This document shows positions 8,657 to 57,614 of a stretch of DNA of 64,000 bases, piece after piece. Origin of the DNA: an uncultured Candidatus Peregrinibacteria bacterium. GTDB lineage: Bacteria; Patescibacteriota; Gracilibacteria; Peribacterales; Peribacteraceae. How positions within the stretch are numbered: position 1 is the first letter of the stretch; each line of letters starts with the position of its first letter. The stretch is from contig CALMES010000105.1 of assembly GCA_937863435.1 (NCBI GenBank), positions 1 to 64,000 on the forward strand. The letters run 5' to 3'. The notes beneath the pieces are model-generated. The model did no database searches. It saw only the letters and a list, made by a program, of their open reading frames with translations, and had not been told where the DNA came from. The translations under genes were made by a program, and so were the position numbers.

Positions 8657-8788
8657 CCCCTCACCCCCAACCCCTCTCCCTGCTCAAGCAGGGTAGAGGG
8701 GATCTCTGATTAAATTATGAATGGAATTTTTTCTGGCATTCCTCTCTCCTCGCCGGAGAGAGGTGGCGCATCAGCGCCGGAGTGAGGC
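8657..8788. repeat. Pair of inverted CCTCACCCC-type repeat arms
   Basis: The left arm, 8657-8701, starts CCCCTCACCCCCAACCCC and contains a CTCTCCCTG/CAGGGTAGAG hairpin. The right arm, 8749-8788, reads outward on the opposite strand as GGCCTCACTCCGGCGC with a CTCTCTCC/GGAGAGAG hairpin. About 47 A/T-rich bases separate them. It has the same architecture as the arms around the DUF559 gene at 14.2-14.7 kb, but without a gene inside. Confidence 0.7.
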
Positions 8789-8794
8789 CAGATT

Positions 8795-11700
8795 CTAGCG
8801 CATCAAATCCGTCGCCAGCGAAATGATCTTCGCCACTTCCGCGCGGGTAATGCTGTCTTCGGGCCGGAACTTGCCCGTCGGCTTGCCTGCGGCATCTGCG
8901 TCGCCCGAGACAATGCCGAGGAATGCGGCAATGCCGATTGCGTTTGTGTACGGATGGGCAAGAGGCACATCCGAAAAATCCGCCCTGTGATTGCCGATCG
9001 GCATATGCAATGCCTCCAGAACTGTCTGCACGACTTCACCTCGCGTTGCCGGCTTTGAGATATCCACTTCCGGAACGTACACCGAAAGACCCAGATCCTC
9101 GGCTGCTTTCGCGTACGCACTCGACCACTGTCCTCTTGCAGACTGGTTGCGCGGCGTGCCGGGGTGATCTTTCAGATTCACTTTCGCGGCCTCCATCACC
9201 ATTTTGAGCAATTCCGAACGCAGAACAGGATTGGCGGGGCCGTAGCGGCCGGTCAGTTTTCCCTCTGCACTCTTGTAGCCGCTGACGATGCCGCCTTCGG
9301 CAACTTTGTACACGAAATACGCAAACCAGTCTTTGGTCTTCACGTCTTTAAAGACGACACGCTCGCCGCTCACTGTCGCCTGCAGACTTCCGTCTTTCTG
9401 CGGCAAACGGGCGATGGCATCCGGCGTCGGTACGGCAGGCGCGATTTTGTTTTCCGCAATCACCTTCTCAAACGCCTGGGCCGCGCGCGTCTGCTGCTGC
9501 GAACCCTGCCTGGACTGGGCGTAGCGGATGAGCGCCGCTTTGACGATATTGTAGGACGGATTGTACCGCGCATATCCCCCGCCGCCGCGCTGAGTCGTTC
9601 CCTGATCAGCTACACTGCTCGATGTACTTGAGGCAGAGAACGTCCAGTTCGTATTGTTGCCGGAATCAGTACAGAACTGAGCGGAAGTATAACAAACCAT
9701 GGCAGCGGCATTGATGTTCTCGCTGTCTTTGACATCCAGGTACGCCAGATTGCGTACTCCCTGGACATCGATCTTCCACTGGTTGCCGGCAGTGCCGGAG
9801 CGGAGGGAGAGCAACGCGCTTGACGATGCTCCGGTGAGTGTCAGTGCGCCAAGAATTGTCTGTGTGGAGCCGGATGCGAATGTAAGCGTGGCGCTTGTAG
9901 AAGCAGTTTTTTTGAAGGCATTAAATGTTGTGCTGCCCGACAGAGTTTGATTCGTTCCATTGAAAAAGACCAGGCCGCTATTATGCGTAAATGTTCCACC
10001 CTGCCTGTTCCAATTGCCCGACACGGTCATAGTGCCCGACGGAGCGAGGAAGGAACCCGTATTCATGAGCATATTGCCATTGATGTTCACCGTGCCGGCC
10101 GTACCGTTTACCACAGCACCAGATAATAGTAATCCGCCATCCAGTCGAGCGTAGCCACTGCCCACTGTCAGCGAACCGTCACCGCGCAGCAATTGCATCA
10201 CACTCCGAATGACGGTCACAGATGAATCCAGTGTCGACAAAAGCCCGCTGTCTATCCTGAGTGCGTTTACCACCAAATTTGCGCCAAGACTGAACAGAGC
10301 TGTCGAGAGTGCGCCATTGGCATAACTTCCGCGGGAAAGGTTTACGACTTCGTTTGCCGACAGCGCCCGATTATAGATTCGCACATCGTCCATCGCACCA
10401 TTAAAGAAACGTTCATTGTTACCAAACCATGTGCCGATCCGCAGTTTACTCAGGCTATTGGACGTATAGTTGATGGTATCCGCACTCGTCTGCGAACCTA
10501 TAAGCGTGCCGTCCTGATAGACTTTTGCCGTCGCGCCGTCCCATGTCGCAACCACATGCGACCAATGACCAGCAAGGGACGTCGGATTGGGCTGCAAGTC
10601 TATAAAGGATGTACCGGCGCCGTTATCGAGACGCAATCGCAGTAAGTTTGCCGTTTGATGATAAATAAATGCGACCGATTCCGTGGCGGCGGATCCGCCA
10701 ATATTCACACCCTGCCCGTACGTGACAATCGCATTGCGATCGCCGGCGGCAGATGACAGATTGATCCAGGCGGAAATAGTGAATGCCTGCAATTCGAACT
10801 GTGACGACTGCGGCACATCGATCTCGTCGTTATAGCCATTGAACTTCATGGCAAACGCATTATCAAATTGAATGAGCGACGGAAGTGATGAACCGCTCCA
10901 CGTACTGCCCGTGCCAGTACGAACCCCTGTGTGTCCGTACCCGGATGAGTCGCGGATGATTGCCTGACCATCATCCAGTTTCCAGTAGGCAATGAGTCCG
11001 CTTTCTGTCGGGTCTTCGATGTGCAATGTATTGAAGTGTGAAAAATTGGTGACAGTACTGTTGGCCGGCGACATCAGAACCACGCTACCCGATTCCGCCG
11101 AAAAACCGCCGCCGTTTTCATACCAGGTTCCAGCATGAACGGTATAACTGCCCGACGCATCGAGCGTACCCGAAGTGAATGTAACAGTGCCACTCGCTGT
11201 CAATCGATCACGCGTATTCCACGTACCGCCGCTGCCGAATGTCATATTGTTAAACCATTGCCCGCCCGACAAAACTTCGAGCCCGGCCGATGAAGAGCCG
11301 AATGTGACAGTACCGTTACGCGCATTGAACGTCCCTCCGTTGTTCAGCCACGATCCTCCGACCGTAATACCGTAATTCGATGACGAGACATCGAGCAGTC
11401 CGCTGTTGAGCGTAAGATTGTTATTGACTGTCAGCGCGCTGCCAAGCGTGAGTGTGCCCGACGCTGTCGCCGGCTGGTTGCCGGCACCCAGAGCCGCAAT
11501 TTCACCCTGACTCAACACTCTGTTGTAGATACGGAAGTCATCCATTTTCCCCTGGTAGTAGGCATCGACACCCCAGTTACTGCGGCCGATGTAGTTGAGT
11601 GTACGCGTAATATTCACGGGCGCATTCGTTGTGCCGCTCGCAAGAAGTTGACCGTCTTTATACAAACGCACCCCACCGACTGCCGTAACAGTAGCAGCGT

Positions 11701-13225
11701 AATGGTGCCACTGATTATTCGAGATAGCTCCAGTAGCCGTTACCCCGCCTCCTGTAGCACCCGTATAGATCTCAAACCACAAATCGGACGTGGAGGATTT
11801 GCGTCCGAACAGAATATTGTTACTCGACTGGCCGTTTCCGAAATCCATAAACCTCGCCCAGTTGCCTGTCGCTGACGGATTGGCCCACAGCGCAATTGTT
11901 ATACCATTGTGCAAATCGCTGAACCCGGCGGGAACCGTGACGTGATCGTTGATGCCGTCGAAACTCAGGCTGCGCGGATTATGGAAATTCAGCGGCGCGA
12001 CAACTGCTGATGGAACGGCTCCGCCGACGAGAGTGCCCGACCCGTTATAGCCGGATGCATCGGCAGCGCGCGTGCCCGATTTTTCGTCAAATTTCAGATA
12101 CGTCATCAGTCCGTCATTGATAGTGAAGTTGTAATACGTGCCGCCAAGAGGCAGGCCGGAATAGGAACCCGTTCCGTAGACCATCGCGGTGCCGTGCGAC
12201 GTATCATTTGCCGCAATGCTGATGGTGCTGTTTCCCAAAACCGCCAGCGTGCCGTAGTTGGTGAAGAGTCCCACATCATTGAGGGTGAATTTTTTGCCCG
12301 TCAGCTGCAATAACGCCCCCGTGTTGATCGTCAGCGCCGCGCCCGATACGGCAACCGGTACAACGGGACTGCGCGCAGTGGCTGCAACAACAATATTGGT
12401 ATACGGATCGGGTACCGCACCGATATCCCAGTTGGCTCCGGTCTCCCAGCTGGTCGACGTTCCGCCCGCCCATGTTGCCGTCGTATTCAGGGAATTGGCG
12501 AGCGCTGTCACTTCGGTCTGCGACAGGACCCGGTTGTACACACGGACATCATCAACTTTTCCGACAAAATAGTTATCGGGGTAATCACCGGCATTACCGA
12601 AATGAAACACTCCCCTCCCGCCGGCACCCGGTGTCCCCACCCAGGTGGTAGTTCCCTGCAGAGATCCGTTCACATAGAACTTGATGGTGTACGTCGTTCC
12701 GGACAATCCCCAGGTCAAAACCAGATGATTCCACGTGTTTTGCGTGATAGTTGCTGACGCAGTAATGGCCGCTTCGGCATTGCCGCTGTTGTTCGGCCGA
12801 AAAACACCGCGCCATCTTCCCGGCGAGCCGGCCCCGCCTTCATCGATGAGCGCGTAGCCGTTCGTCGCACCCAACAGCTTCCATCCGGCCGGGCTGATCC
12901 AGTCAGTATATGATGTCGGATAGGCCCAGAGAACGATGGAGCCGGTATCCGTCCAGGTGACGGACGTTGTTGCGTAGTTCGACCCGTTAAACTGCAGACC
13001 GTTGATGAACTTGCCGGTCGTCCAGACTGGCGAGCCTGTCAATGTTGCCGTCTTGCCGTCACCCGATGCATCGGCAGCGCTTGTGCCTGTTCCTTCATCA
13101 AGCTTCCAGAACCCCTTCAAAGCATCGGTGTTATATGCTGCCAATGCAGGCGATATGCGTATCAGCAAAAAAACAGTCAACAGAAGTGTTGCAAAAAATA
13201 CAAACAAACGCGTGCGAAATGACAA
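8795..13225 (-). CDS. Giant surface protein with three LamG domains and C-terminal SLH repeats
   Basis: 1476 residues from TTG 13225. This start is chosen because a signal peptide (SFRTRLFVFFATLLLTVFL, then SPALA) follows directly, and it is preceded by a pyrimidine tract and a TACAAT box; the ATG at 13345 would read through that promoter. Concanavalin-like LamG domains lie at about 32-250, 373-580 and 741-965, each opening L-x-Y/F-W/L-K-L/F-D-E/D and closing DD-x-R-I/V-YNR-x-LS. Between and after them are repetitive Gly/Ser/Thr beta-strand segments. Three SLH-like repeats close the protein (about 1290-1476; DWFAYFVYKVAEGGIVSG, FRPEDSITRAEVAKII). The protein is predicted to attach to the cell wall through SLH and to bind glycans. 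Confidence 0.85.
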   Translation of the reverse strand: MSFRTRLFVFFATLLLTVFLLIRISPALAAYNTDALKGFWKLDEGTGTSAADASGDGKTATLTGSPVWTTGKFINGLQFNGSNYATTSVTWTDTGSIVLWAYPTSYTDWISPAGWKLLGATNGYALIDEGGAGSPGRWRGVFRPNNSGNAEAAITASATITQNTWNHLVLTWGLSGTTYTIKFYVNGSLQGTTTWVGTPGAGGRGVFHFGNAGDYPDNYFVGKVDDVRVYNRVLSQTEVTALANSLNTTATWAGGTSTSWETGANWDIGAVPDPYTNIVVAATARSPVVPVAVSGAALTINTGALLQLTGKKFTLNDVGLFTNYGTLAVLGNSTISIAANDTSHGTAMVYGTGSYSGLPLGGTYYNFTINDGLMTYLKFDEKSGTRAADASGYNGSGTLVGGAVPSAVVAPLNFHNPRSLSFDGINDHVTVPAGFSDLHNGITIALWANPSATGNWARFMDFGNGQSSNNILFGRKSSTSDLWFEIYTGATGGGVTATGAISNNQWHHYAATVTAVGGVRLYKDGQLLASGTTNAPVNITRTLNYIGRSNWGVDAYYQGKMDDFRIYNRVLSQGEIAALGAGNQPATASGTLTLGSALTVNNNLTLNSGLLDVSSSNYGITVGGSWLNNGGTFNARNGTVTFGSSSAGLEVLSGGQWFNNMTFGSGGTWNTRDRLTASGTVTFTSGTLDASGSYTVHAGTWYENGGGFSAESGSVVLMSPANSTVTNFSHFNTLHIEDPTESGLIAYWKLDDGQAIIRDSSGYGHTGVRTGTGSTWSGSSLPSLIQFDNAFAMKFNGYNDEIDVPQSSQFELQAFTISAWINLSSAAGDRNAIVTYGQGVNIGGSAATESVAFIYHQTANLLRLRLDNGAGTSFIDLQPNPTSLAGHWSHVVATWDGATAKVYQDGTLIGSQTSADTINYTSNSLSKLRIGTWFGNNERFFNGAMDDVRIYNRALSANEVVNLSRGSYANGALSTALFSLGANLVVNALRIDSGLLSTLDSSVTVIRSVMQLLRGDGSLTVGSGYARLDGGLLLSGAVVNGTAGTVNINGNMLMNTGSFLAPSGTMTVSGNWNRQGGTFTHNSGLVFFNGTNQTLSGSTTFNAFKKTASTSATLTFASGSTQTILGALTLTGASSSALLSLRSGTAGNQWKIDVQGVRNLAYLDVKDSENINAAAMVCYTSAQFCTDSGNNTNWTFSASSTSSSVADQGTTQRGGGGYARYNPSYNIVKAALIRYAQSRQGSQQQTRAAQAFEKVIAENKIAPAVPTPDAIARLPQKDGSLQATVSGERVVFKDVKTKDWFAYFVYKVAEGGIVSGYKSAEGKLTGRYGPANPVLRSELLKMVMEAAKVNLKDHPGTPRNQSARGQWSSAYAKAAEDLGLSVYVPEVDISKPATRGEVVQTVLEALHMPIGNHRADFSDVPLAHPYTNAIGIAAFLGIVSGDADAAGKPTGKFRPEDSITRAEVAKIISLATDLMR

Positions 13226-13250
13226 GAGGCGAGAGGGAAAGATAAAGCTG

Positions 13251-13256
13251 ATTGTA
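13251..13256 (-). promoter_or_regulatory. -10 box of the LamG/SLH gene
   Basis: TACAAT on the minus strand, 25 bases before the proposed TTG start. The transcribed leader would be the pyrimidine-rich TTTATCTTTCCCTCTCGCC segment. Confidence 0.5.
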
Positions 13257-13363
13257 GCAACGGAATGTGTCACACACGACCTTCTGTGACCGACTTCGAT
13301 TGCAAGACATCTGCATTTGTGATGAATGGGCAATACGCTCAGCATACCGGCATGACGGCTAAA

Positions 13364-14114: not shown

Positions 14115-14196
14115 TGTTATGCGCGAAAACAAGCGAGAGCTATTTATGGCTTTCTGCTGACGTTTGATAGATGAAATAATTTTAATACTCAACGTA

Positions 14197-14234
14197 CCCT
14201 CACCCTAACCCTCTCCCTTTGCGAAGGGAGAGGG
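14197..14234 (+). repeat. Left arm of DUF559-flanking inverted repeat
   Basis: CCCTCACCCTAACCCTCTCC followed by CTTTGCGAAGGGAGAGGG, so the arm itself ends in a CTCTCCCTT/AAGGGAGAG hairpin. Together with the arm at 14677-14720 it brackets the DUF559 frame. Confidence 0.8.
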
Positions 14235-14237
14235 AAC

Positions 14238-14661
14238 ATGGAACATTACCTTCTGAAATCAATACAAACCTATTTTCGTGTCATGAATAGTATAAAGCAG
14301 CATCAGCTTATGCTATCGACACGCGTTCCCCGAGCTATCAGCACAGCAAAAATGTTGCGCAAACGCCAAACGAAATCTGAAATTTTATTATGGAATACAT
14401 TGCGCAATCGCCGTCCGGGCGATTTCAAATTCAGACGACAATCACCTATTGATCGTTATATTGTTGATTGTGTATGTATAGAAAAAACTCATTGTGGAGA
14501 TTGATGGCGATGCTCATTTATACAAAGAAAAATCGGACTACATCCGCGAGCAGATGGTGATACGAGCCTGCTTCATTGTTCAAAGATTTACCAATGATCA
14601 ACTATACGAATCGATGGATTTTGTTCCTGAATCCATACTCTCTGCATTACAAAATCAGTAA
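14238..14661 (+). pseudogene. DUF559 endonuclease-like protein, frameshifted
   Basis: The first frame (from 14238, or ATG 14283) gives the DUF559 N-terminal half: LRKRQTKSEILLWNTLRNRR, then FKFRRQSPIDRYIVDCVCIEK. At the A-run 14482-14487 the frame breaks. Adding one base of shift continues it as LIVEIDGDAHLYKEKSDYIR to the TAA at 14661. The combined protein matches the Vsr/PD-(D/E)XK-like DUF559 fold, whose catalytic residues include the E-I-D of this strand. One extra A explains the break, which may be a real mutation or an assembly or sequencing error. Confidence 0.8.
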
Positions 14662-14676
14662 CAGAAATACTACTAC

Positions 14677-14720
14677 ATTCCCTCTCCCAGCCGTGGCGCG
14701 GAGAAGGCTAGGGTGAGGGG
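14677..14720 (-). repeat. Right arm of DUF559-flanking inverted repeat
   Basis: Read on the minus strand it starts CCCCTCACCCTAGCCTTCTC and ends GGGAGAGGG, matching the left arm at 14197-14234 outward to inward. The two arms are 442 bases apart and hold only the DUF559 frame. Confidence 0.8.
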
Positions 14721-14741
14721 CGCACCATCAGAAGAAGAATC

Positions 14742-15938
14742 TTATTTCTTCGTCTCTTTCTCTTTTTTCGCCGGAGAAAAATGCATCGTGAACGTTGTTT
14801 CCTGTCCGTGCGTGCTCTGGGCGTGAATAGTCCATCCGTGCAAATCCACGATGCGTTTGACGAGTGCGAGGCCGAGGCCGAGGCCCGTTTTGCCCTTGGT
14901 GCGCGATGTATCTTCCTGATAAAAGCGATTGAAGATATTGGGAAGCGCGTCTTGCGCAATGCCCTTCCCCGTATCGCGAACGGCCAGGGTATGGGAGGTA
15001 AGTTTTACCTGTATCTTTCCGCCGTCTTTATTGAACTTCACGGCATTCGCCAGAAGATTGGTGACAATCTGACGAATGAGCGATCCGTCACCCAGCACTT
15101 TTACAGCAGGCGCGATGTGACGTTCAATGACAATGTTTTTCTGATCGGCAAACTGCTGGTGCCTGTCGATGGTTTCTTCAACAAGCGCCGACAGATTCAC
15201 CTCTTCTTTGCGCAGAAGAAAATGATCCAGCCGTGCAAGTTCAAGTAATCGTTCCACAAGCGTGTTTATTTCCTTCAGATCATTTTTCGCACTCAATACG
15301 TTCTCGCGGAATTCACCGGTTGCAAGAGCAAGATCAAGAGACGTGCTTATGGCGGTCAGAGGTGTGCGTAATTCGTGGCTGGCATCCTGGGTGAACTGCT
15401 CGAGTCGCTCCACCATCTGCTGGGCCGGCTTCAGACTGCGCCGGGCGAAATACAGCCCTACGGCAAATGTCAGAAAAGAAATACCCAGACTCACCCATAC
15501 AAACAGCGTCACCTGTTTGGACAAATCATCGGGCGGTGACCGGTCGGCAATCTGCAAAAATCCTCCCGGCTGGCCGGTTTCCAGCAGCAAAGGCGTGGTG
15601 AGAATATCGTATGTTTCCGCCTCCACCGTAATGGTCGACATGCCAACATCCAGTTCGAACGGAATCTGCTCGTAGAGTTCGCCGCTGAACAGACTGTTGC
15701 CGCTTGCATCCAGCACGCGCAAGCGGCTGCGCAGCACCGGCGGCACGGACAACGGAAGATCCCGGCCGCCTTTCTGTCGCTGCAAAATCGCCTGCTGCAT
15801 CTGCTCCAGATGCGCGCGCTTGTGCCGGTAACGGTCAGCGAAACTGGCACCAAGGAAAATCATGCCGGTTATAAAGAGCATCAGGAAAACAAAGGCGGTA
15901 AACTGCGCGGCGATTCTGTAACTGATGCGGTTGAACAT
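14742..15938 (-). CDS. Sensor histidine kinase
   Basis: 398 residues. TM1 is at about 9-31, an extracytoplasmic sensor domain at about 35-140 (LDASGNSLFSGELYEQIPFE) and TM2 at about 143-165. The HisKA box is QDASHELRTPLTAIS with phospho-acceptor His188. The HATPase domain has an N box (LLANAVKFN), G1 (VRDTGKGIA), an F box and G2 (GKTGLGLGLALVKRI). It phosphorylates the OmpR-type regulator encoded upstream. Between the two genes lies a 127-base stretch of GGGACTTAGGG-type words, so the pair is not tightly overlapped. Confidence 0.92.
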   Translation of the reverse strand: MFNRISYRIAAQFTAFVFLMLFITGMIFLGASFADRYRHKRAHLEQMQQAILQRQKGGRDLPLSVPPVLRSRLRVLDASGNSLFSGELYEQIPFELDVGMSTITVEAETYDILTTPLLLETGQPGGFLQIADRSPPDDLSKQVTLFVWVSLGISFLTFAVGLYFARRSLKPAQQMVERLEQFTQDASHELRTPLTAISTSLDLALATGEFRENVLSAKNDLKEINTLVERLLELARLDHFLLRKEEVNLSALVEETIDRHQQFADQKNIVIERHIAPAVKVLGDGSLIRQIVTNLLANAVKFNKDGGKIQVKLTSHTLAVRDTGKGIAQDALPNIFNRFYQEDTSRTKGKTGLGLGLALVKRIVDLHGWTIHAQSTHGQETTFTMHFSPAKKEKETKK

Positions 15939-17668: not shown

Positions 17669-17941
17669 ATGGATACCACTATTCAAATCCGCACCAATCA
17701 GAAAACCAAGAAATCCGCCCAGCTGATTTTAGAAAAGCTCGGACTGGATTTAAGTACGGCGATCAATATTTATCTGGTGCAGATTATCGCCAAGAAAGGT
17801 ATTCCGTTTGAGATTCTGACAGAAAACGGCATGACGGTTGCCGAGGAAAAAGAACTACTGGAAGATATTGAATGGACGAAGAAGCATGGAAAATCGTATA
17901 CATCGACAAAGGAGATGATGGAGGATATTCTTGCAGAATGA
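17669..17941 (+). CDS. RelB/DinJ-family antitoxin
   Basis: 90 residues. The N-terminal ribbon-helix-helix (MDTTIQIRTNQKTKKSAQLI, then LGLDLSTAINIYLVQIIAKKGIPFEI) is characteristic of DinJ/RelB, which bind operator DNA as dimers. The acidic C-terminus (EEKELLEDIEWTKKHGKSYT) would wrap the toxin. The ATG sits six bases after TATACT, so the transcript is leaderless. It overlaps the toxin start by 4 bp (ATGA). Confidence 0.88.
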   Translation: MDTTIQIRTNQKTKKSAQLILEKLGLDLSTAINIYLVQIIAKKGIPFEILTENGMTVAEEKELLEDIEWTKKHGKSYTSTKEMMEDILAE

Positions 17942-18225
17942 AGGAATATGTACGACAAACATCGAAGCAATTTCGTAAAGATGTCCGCCGTCTTGGTAAA
18001 TCGGGATATGACCTTACGAAGCTAGAGAGGATAATCGACTTGCTCGCCTCCGATAAAAAGCTACCCGATACCTATAAAGACCATGAATTACGCGGCAATT
18101 TTGCCGGAAAAAGAGAATGTCATATCGGCCCCGACTGGTTACTGATGTATGAAAAAGATGAGGGCCGGCTCATTCTGCTGCTCATTCGCACCGGTCGTCA
18201 CCGGCAGGTTCTGGGTATTGAGTAA
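17938..18225 (+). CDS. YafQ/RelE-family mRNA interferase toxin
   Basis: 95 residues. It carries the YafQ catalytic set: His49 (YKDHEL), His62 and Asp66 (ECHIGPDWLL) and His88 (RTGRHRQVL), matching the family's H50, H63, D67 and H87. It cleaves ribosome-bound mRNA when free of the antitoxin. The start overlaps the antitoxin stop. A GGAGG lies 12 bases upstream, one of the few Shine-Dalgarno-like sequences in the window, which hints at transfer from another lineage. Confidence 0.9.
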   Translation: MKEYVRQTSKQFRKDVRRLGKSGYDLTKLERIIDLLASDKKLPDTYKDHELRGNFAGKRECHIGPDWLLMYEKDEGRLILLLIRTGRHRQVLGIE

Positions 18226-24226: not shown

Positions 24227-24272
24227 CTCCCCTCTCTGCCGCTTTAGCGGGGAGAGGGGTTGGGGTGAGGGG
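24227..24272 (-). repeat. Single CCCTCACCCCAACCCC repeat arm
   Basis: Read on the minus strand it starts GCCCCTCACCCCAACCCCTC and ends in a CTCCCCGCT/AGCGGCAGAGAGG-type hairpin. It is the same family as the arms at 8.7, 14.2, 14.7, 57.2 and 63.95 kb, but solitary. Confidence 0.7.
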
Positions 24273-24365
24273 CCAGGCCTACGAATGATGAGCCTCATCT
24301 TAATAGCAGTACACTGTATTTCCCATCTTGTAAGCAAGTATGACTGCACGCCATACTGCCTGCCT

Positions 24366-57221: not shown

Positions 57222-57360
57222 GCCCCTCACCCCCGGCCCCTCTCTTCGCTAAAGTGAGGAGAGAGGAGCTGAGCATAAGAATATAAATTAGATTTGAAGA
57301 AATTAAGAATGTCCCTCTCCCTGCTTCAGCAGGGAGAGGGTGGCCGTAAGCCGGGTCAGG
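57222..57360. repeat. CCTCACCCC-type repeat arms
   Basis: The left arm 57222-57273 begins CCCCTCACCCCCGGCCCC with a CTCTCTTC/GAGGAGAGAG hairpin. The right arm 57311-57360 has CCCTCTCCCTGCTTCAGCAG followed by GGAGAGGG, then GGCCGTAAGCCGGGTCAGGG. About 37 A/T-rich bases lie between. It belongs to the same family as the arms around the DUF559 gene. Confidence 0.65.
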
Positions 57361-57614
57361 GAGCGAACTGTCAATAATCCCCTCTCAATCCGTAAGAGCT
57401 TTCTGTAAGAGGCGTCATGAATGGCACACTCTTTCCTTTTACTCATGACTACATCGTATCTCCAACTCCTCTCCGGCATTTCTCTCGCTATGTGGGCCCT
57501 CATGCTCAAAGTGCATGCGACGGGTATTTAATACCGAAGCGAATGCGTGAAAATACTGCATTTCTTTCGCTGTGGCTCTTGCGAAACACGCGCAAATGGC
57601 TGACAATACGCCCG

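Follow-up and report, generated by a model that had tools for sequence, protein, structure and literature searches.

Bacterial repeats able to fold into intrastrand DNA triplexes were recognized about 25 years ago and are on record from hundreds of genomes. The largest study, that of Holder et al. (2015), found such triplex motifs (TM or TMECO; earlier named PIT elements, as in the work of Hoyne and Maher cited therein) in more than 260 genomes (PMC4666352). The E. coli MG1655 chromosome harbors 23 TM copies, with five sites consisting of inverted pairs; the motif forms a stable triplex in vitro, and CD and NMR established its fold in solution. In vivo, DMS footprinting of E. coli failed to reveal a stable triplex, PIT elements gave no sign of promoter or terminator activity in this species, and TM sites proved unusually variable (PMC4666352). 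These motifs were regarded as instability-causing repeats with no link to mobile elements; no mobility gene was found nearby, no transposase or integrase remnants were reported, and neither "DUF" nor "endonuclease" occurs in the main text of the article.

Also pertinent are the REPIN/RAYT pairs (Bertels and Rainey 2011, PMC3116915), in which abundant, extragenic inverted pairs of short palindromes, of several subtypes per genome, match the repeats at one enzyme gene. The DUF559 units described below share these features but differ in encoding a Vsr-like nuclease instead of an HUH Y1 transposase, in having triplex-forming arms (folding being inferred), and in being multicopy and moving with their arms, RAYTs being single-copy. 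With insertion sequences (IS) and their MITEs, these units have in common an autonomous form, internally deleted and gene-less derivatives, and arm-bounded copies; they differ in containing no DDE, HUH, serine or tyrosine recombinase and in showing no clear target-site duplication. Finally, DUF559 shares its fold and a similar active-site layout with EDxHD homing endonucleases (3R3P; Z 11.8) and with Vsr (1CW0 and 1VSR; Z 9.7 and 9.1). Unlike these enzymes' genes, DUF559 units involve no intron, intein or cognate allele, are bounded by inverted triplex arms, and have gene-less derivatives.

The window (the whole 64,000-nucleotide stretch of DNA analyzed here, from an uncultured Candidatus Peregrinibacteria bacterium) contains, at positions 14197-14720, two facing arms around a single, frameshifted DUF559 gene. 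We consider it likely, with a probability of roughly 0.72, that this unit is a broken copy of a mobile element having DUF559 as its sole gene and intrastrand-triplex (TM/PIT) motifs as its ends. A 20-nt inverted repeat (14197-14216 and 14700-14719; 90% complementary, spaced by 483 nt) defines the unit. On the folding strand, each arm comprises a C/T-rich stem, a loop, a purine stem, a linker and a tail. The left arm, on the minus strand, reads CCCTCTCCCTT-CGCA-AAGGGAGAGGG-TTA-GGGTGAGGG. Its tail (14197-14205; CCCTCACCC on the plus strand, GGGTGAGGG on the folding strand) begins with the first base of the unit and is joined through a 3-nt linker (14206-14208; TAA/TTA, assigned from the sequence) to the hairpin CCCTCTCCCTT-loop-AAGGGAGAGGG (14209-14234), the stem of which is a perfect 11 bp. 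TTA is the most frequent linker among 279 short-linker arms. The right arm, on the plus strand, reads CCCTCTCC-loop-GGAGAAGG-CTA-GGGTGAGGGG, with an imperfect hairpin at 14680-14707, the CTA linker (likewise read from the sequence) at 14708-14710, and a tail at 14711-14720 that forms the last bases of the unit. Thus the tails point outward and the gene lies between the hairpins. Except for loop length, the left arm conforms to the E. coli consensus, while the right arm is altered at one stem position. With TM/PIT motifs the arms share the grammar CCCTCNCCC-N3-6-GGGNGAGGG-N3-GGGNGAGGG and an intergenic, dispersed distribution, partly in inverted pairs; they differ in being far more varied in sequence and in sometimes having hairpin linkers. 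By sequence, they are the motifs known from E. coli, their folding being inferred. As to known RNA families, Rfam matched only a tmRNA gene in the window (RF00023; 2126-2525, minus strand), so the arms correspond to none.

The first half of the DUF559 gene occupies an open frame of 88 aa (14238-14504, plus strand), with domain positions 4-53 encoded at 14337-14486; the second half lies in another frame (14470-14660, plus strand), with domain positions 49-109 at 14470-14652. Both halves exceed the curated cut-off of the DUF559 profile (PF04480; 54.6 and 39.6 bits against 20.6). The catalytic motif IE-x-DG-x-x-H is found in the second half and is conserved in alignments A1/A2; activity is inferred. 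Because the frame break is located at a run of A residues, the window copy is a pseudogene unless the assembly is in error. A programmed frameshift would require a +1 shift at the A-run, which the usual -1 slippery heptamer does not fit, and this reading was rejected; the frameshift is probably a mutation, although an assembly error could also account for it. The assembly is a fragmented metagenomic bin (2.14 Mb, 168 contigs), and the search for arms across the window's own genome was partial. No transposase or recombinase gene is found inside the window unit, where DUF559 stands alone between the arms; DUF559 units do meet the insertion-sequence criterion of terminal inverted repeats. The first-pass annotation of the window had proposed that DUF559 is the only coding sequence between two matching arms, each able to form a hairpin, and that an extra A breaks the gene. 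All of this held, with the qualifications that the gene lies in two frames, that the right stem is imperfect, and that the split at the A-run could be an assembly artifact.

The tail sequence CCCTCACCC occurs five times in the window as against 0.32 expected, a count attained in none of 100 shuffles. Besides the arms of the unit, the window contains two gene-less pairs and a single arm without partner (24229-24273, plus strand; hairpin, TTG linker, tail GGGTGAGGGG). One pair has a left arm at 8657-8701 (minus strand) and a right arm at 8741-8787 (plus strand) of the linker-hairpin subtype, with tail GGAGTGAGG. The other, shared with a congener (G287) at the orthologous site, has its left arm at 57223-57266 (minus strand) and its right arm, with a linker hairpin and a decayed tail GGGTCAGGG, at 57313-57361 (plus strand). 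The earlier claim that these pairs have the same design as the unit was therefore borne out only in part: the pairs exist, but the second arm of each belongs to another subtype or has decayed. A second DUF559 gene in the window assembly (C147:17412-17726) also sits between facing arms, of a different subtype (GACCTCATCC..CTTCTCCT-GCGA-GGAGAAGG), and this unit is common to the window genome and G287. Among neighboring genes, a minus-strand frame at 8795-13345, adjoining the gene-less pair at 8.7 kb, encodes a 1516-aa protein with repeated LamG-like and C-terminal S-layer-homology-like segments, and two small genes at 17669-18225 (90 and 117 aa) resemble a RelB/RelE-type toxin-antitoxin pair; both assignments were made by eye.

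The tail of an arm repeats its purine stem in reverse order, with A either retained or replaced by T (stem AAAGAGAAGGA with tail GGATGAGTT, AAGGAGGGG with GGGGAGGTT, GGAGAGGG with GGGTGAGG). Such a mirror relation cannot give Watson-Crick pairs but is what a purine-motif triplex requires. Triplexes of this kind are built of G.G-C, A.A-T and T.A-T triplets, with the third strand antiparallel to the purine strand. For the 130 unique arms whose stems are asymmetric, the rule held at 95.7% of tail positions, compared with 81.8% when tails were permuted (z=16.6). A direct-repeat relation between stem and tail gave a weaker signal (z=3.6-6.1) and was discarded. Perfect triplets throughout were found in 126 of 185 arms, permuted tails giving a mean of 18 and a maximum of 28. 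To remove the effect of shared ancestry, tails were swapped between arms of the same locus having different stems: the arm's own tail fitted better in 41 cases and the swapped one in 2, with 6 ties (p=2e-10). The arms thus follow intrastrand-triplex rules by covariation; that these particular arms fold is inferred from sequence. A G-quadruplex was considered in place of the triplex and set aside, since a canonical G3 motif is present in only 51 of the 185 arms and, of the 134 without it, 85 still form perfect triplets. The linker is usually 2-3 nt long and in some lineages forms a hairpin of its own. The sequence criterion for TM/PIT elements, namely a Y-rich stem, a loop, an R-rich stem, a short linker and a third strand pairing by rule, is met.

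Enclosure of DUF559 genes by arms is not peculiar to the window. The 350 bp to the left of each gene were aligned to the reverse complement of the 350 bp to the right (threshold score ≥24), the next 350 bp outward on each side serving as control. Matching facing arms were detected at 81 of 91 DUF559 loci in the window's phylum (adjoining outer flanks, 8/91) and at 70 of 85 loci of a second set (outer flanks, 4/78), or 151 of 176 loci as against 12 of 169 outer flanks altogether. The second set, collected with a single protein as query, consisted of species-representative genomes and six plasmid-collection records, and spanned Proteobacteria, Nitrospirae, Planctomycetes, Chloroflexi, Cyanobacteria-related bacteria, Rickettsiales and others. 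The gene usually occupies the whole space between the arms, with hairpins near its start and stop codons. Arms vary widely in sequence from one element to another, but left and right arms of one element agree; nuclease and arm similarities are weakly correlated across phyla (Mantel rho 0.25; none of 500 permutations as high). By automatic annotation, tails point toward the gene in 81 loci and outward, as in the window, in 16, the remainder being mixed or incomplete. With two orientations of the arms relative to the gene, cut sites are perhaps not equivalent. At some loci a complete arm pair lies on either side of the gene.

Individual loci show further arrangements. In a Gastranaerophilales genome (L171), DUF559 lies between two arms identical over most of about 88 bp, which could reflect recent insertion or conversion. 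Two tandem DUF559 genes of equal score and frame length, 565 bp apart (L082/L083; G252:C13:33253-34138), have arms between and around them. On Picosynechococcus plasmids (L187, L188), many tandem arms flank DUF559, A/T-containing triplex-like repeats (CCCCCGATTCGGGGGCTAGGGGG) lying next to repeats of the TACTGGTG type.

Comparison with G287 provided evidence that arms and gene come and go together. In this congener, a histidine kinase gene (84% identical) and the same upstream gene surround the site of the window unit, with no arms and no DUF559 between them; just 24 nt stand in place of window positions 14197-14754. Homology between the two sequences ends at 14196, one base ahead of the left arm. 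Reciprocally, the window genome lacks a DUF559 unit of G287 (L238), having 42 nt instead at the orthologous site. Neither empty allele contains arms; the units must either have entered arm-free sites or have left without trace. G287 itself carries three DUF559 units. Two of these (L221 and L238) occupy unrelated loci, match each other at 90% identity over 524 columns bounded precisely by the arms, and have the same premature TGA codon. Sharing of this codon implies copying of a unit whose gene was already broken, suggesting that the enzyme acted in trans or was lost very recently. In the third (L220), the frame is intact and no catalytic motif is missing. At two further G287 loci (L237, L243), the middle of the gene is deleted and its two ends are retained, and about 20 dispersed gene-less pairs of 130-200 bp have the same arms, meeting the inverted-doublet criterion of REPIN-type repeats. 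A gene-less pair present in G082 (genus g33) is missing from the congener G010, where the adjacent genes abut. No match to the arms was found anywhere in G032, a genome without DUF559 by the present search.

Arms and gene therefore constitute a single unit, present in one congener and absent from another, and found in near-identical copies at unrelated loci. Mobility of the unit is well supported; no transposition was observed, and how the enzyme would bring it about is inferred. Target-site duplications were not seen reproducibly: TCAT flanks one G082 pair on both sides, and polymorphic motif sites of E. coli gave no clean duplication. Exact junctions and target-site duplications remain unresolved because congener flanks are only 69-77% identical. 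The first-pass annotation had suggested a nuclease-linked element with gene-less derivatives, to be checked by looking for arms at other DUF559 genes and for empty sites in relatives. Both checks came out in its favor, and in G287 one set of arms is found on gene-less, internally deleted and gene-bearing copies alike. What had not been foreseen was the triplex grammar, the tie to TM/PIT repeats and the ycjD gene of E. coli (see below). As a separate observation, the arms of a 220-bp unit of G287 (L242) have counterparts 2.3 kb apart in the window genome (L257; G000:C19, 14040-16480), with two long open frames of 290 and 297 codons between them, representing cargo or a later insertion.

Given the proximity of the hairpins to the start and stop codons of the gene, one could also take the arms for mere bidirectional terminators or REP-like gene ends that have nothing to do with mobility. 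We deem it very unlikely. Termination does not need the mirror rules of the tails, no such activity was found in the E. coli study of PIT elements (PMC4666352), and arm-to-arm copies and sites empty in congeners contradict it.

Gene and motif co-occur. DUF559 is present in 74 of 287 genomes of the window's phylum and a strict motif pattern, covering one common arm type only, in 38, with up to about 70 occurrences per genome; 35 of these 38 have DUF559 (Fisher p about 7e-21, a value inflated by genome relatedness). The pattern read backwards, used as control, occurs in no genome. No DUF559 gene was seen in the three remaining motif-bearing genomes (G029, G143, G145), possibly owing to gene loss or missing contigs.

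These figures bear on the possibility that another enzyme (RAYT/Y1 or an insertion sequence) spreads the arms, DUF559 being a mere passenger. Y1 transposases (PF01797) do occur in the window genome (five) and in G287 (four), and the movement of units sharing an inactivated DUF559 shows that the enzyme can act in trans. However, none of the Y1 genes inspected in the two genomes lies beside these arms, and neither enclosure at 151 of 176 loci across phyla nor the motif-gene association would be expected of a passenger, which makes this explanation unlikely. Where repeats were seen at the RAYT-like Y1 genes, they were other palindromes (AGAGCGGCCGTTCCCGGCCGCGG... and GTAGCCGGCGGTTTAAACCGCCGGCTAC), as at L282 (G000:C106:28778-28990) and L281 (G287:C10:16724-16912). 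Y1 genes and their own palindromes make up a second, separate repeat-enzyme system.

When the family profile was compared with solved chains, the best match was N. gonorrhoeae NGO0050 (3HRL), followed by the catalytic domain of the homing endonuclease I-Bth0305I (3R3P, E 0.0018); enterotoxin and cholera-toxin B-subunit entries (E >0.02) were taken as chance. A structure model (pLDDT 91) matched 3HRL with Z 16.3, 3R3P with Z 11.8 and Vsr (1CW0) with Z 9.7. Residues D46, E57, H63 and D70 are invariant. From the predicted fold and the acidic and histidine residues, DUF559 is a putative Vsr-like, PD-(D/E)XK nuclease, its activity being inferred. Caulobacter VsrA, a DUF559 protein, triggers the SOS response (PMC12907096), indicating that the family is able to damage DNA in vivo. 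An anti-phage role was rejected, PADLOC giving only weak matches to parts of Hhe and DpdF. No element of the present kind was described in the open-access DUF559 literature searched (subscription literature was outside the search).

Kinship with I-Bth0305I raises the possibility of homing, whereby a free-standing DUF559 nuclease would cut gene-less pairs and repair through arm homology would insert the gene. In support, a genome paper already names DUF559 an EDxHD homing-endonuclease gene (PMC9403480), and gene-bearing and gene-less pairs in G287 have arms in common. The criterion of relatedness to a known homing endonuclease is thus met, but that of an intron, intein or intact homologous allele is not: the units are intergenic and arm-bounded. 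Homing remains possible, though we rate it as unlikely; as the only route, it is disfavored by the absence of arms from both empty alleles examined. Moreover, the DUF559 proteins considered here measure about 105-130 aa and lack the extra DNA-binding part of I-Bth0305I.

The data agree with a unit whose limits are set by its two arms and on which DUF559 acts, either in cis or in trans. We picture the following series of events. Arms made single-stranded on the lagging strand, by transcription or by supercoil extrusion, would fold into hairpins, and the G/A/T tail would fold back onto the purine strand as third strand. The DUF559 protein would recognize the folded arm, or a cruciform of two arms, and cut at the tail or close to it, after which the arm-bounded unit would be copied into a new intergenic site by host replication and repair. 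PD-(D/E)XK enzymes cut by hydrolysis and are not known to join strands. Strand joining is thus not expected of a Vsr-like nuclease and must be left to host factors, which is why we propose structure-directed nicking followed by host copying. If any arm pair is usable, internally deleted and gene-less (MITE- or REPIN-like) pairs would come to outnumber gene-bearing ones. Confidence varies with the step: that DUF559 is the mobilizing enzyme is a likely inference; that it reads the folded arm is an inference toward which we only lean; and the cut-then-copy chemistry, also inferred, may well turn out to be wrong.

Alternatively, the triplex repeats could be neutral hot spots that break replication forks and draw repair, with copies arising through arm-arm recombination and DUF559, a mismatch- or structure-repair nuclease, being there by chance or selection. 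The variability of TM sites in E. coli (PMC4666352), recombination of arms into shortened hairpins (O111:H8) and the provocation of SOS by Caulobacter VsrA (PMC12907096) all speak for this view. Yet recombination between arms cannot deliver an arm-bounded unit to an arm-free site, and the presence of matched arms at DUF559 genes in unrelated phyla would be left unexplained; we thus regard a neutral hot spot as unlikely and retain the mobile-element reading. Independently, E. coli arm pairs were seen to be polymorphic at lldD-trmL and hrpB-mrcB (L285, L286, L287, L288), where a full pair, a fused and shortened hairpin, and an absent allele all exist.

The DUF559 link supplies a candidate engine for triplex repeats and may explain their spread, in E. 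coli included. A bolder reading, for and against which the evidence seems to us evenly balanced, is that these units form a separate class of mobile elements, present in many phyla, with DNA-triplex ends and a folded-DNA-reading nuclease of the Vsr/homing-endonuclease type as only enzyme; they would be the source of bacterial intrastrand-triplex repeats, and ycjD would be a domesticated or dying remnant. The DUF559 link would also assign a function to a domain that is very common yet uncharacterized, give triplex DNA a role under selection, and add a type of mobile element in which a structure-reading nuclease replaces the transposase.

E. coli K-12 combines ycjD with about 23 motifs and so lends itself to testing the question; to our knowledge, E. 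coli has no other DUF559 gene. YcjD and NGO0050 are both DUF559 proteins, and the N. gonorrhoeae locus has arms of the same grammar. TM no. 9 (1351204-1351239) lies in the intergenic region adjoining ycjD (1351407-1351760), and strain KE47 has more arm-like sequence directly after the ycjD stop codon. By a rough estimate based on 18 motif sites in the genome, such adjacency would arise by chance in 1-2% of cases, and chance is thus an unlikely cause. The locus differs from the units above in looking like a settled remnant, its flanking arms being one-sided and partly decayed. In Klebsiella pneumoniae, the interval from cysP to a Dyp-type peroxidase gene (L184; a chromosomal locus, on a plasmid record) contains the decayed remains of a DUF559 gene and, after it, a facing arm pair. 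Directly upstream of ycjD (L204; NC_000913.3, about 1351760-1351830) is a perfect inverted repeat, TTCACCTCATTCTGACAA..TTGTCAGAATGAGGTGA, conceivably an operator or the relic of another arm type.
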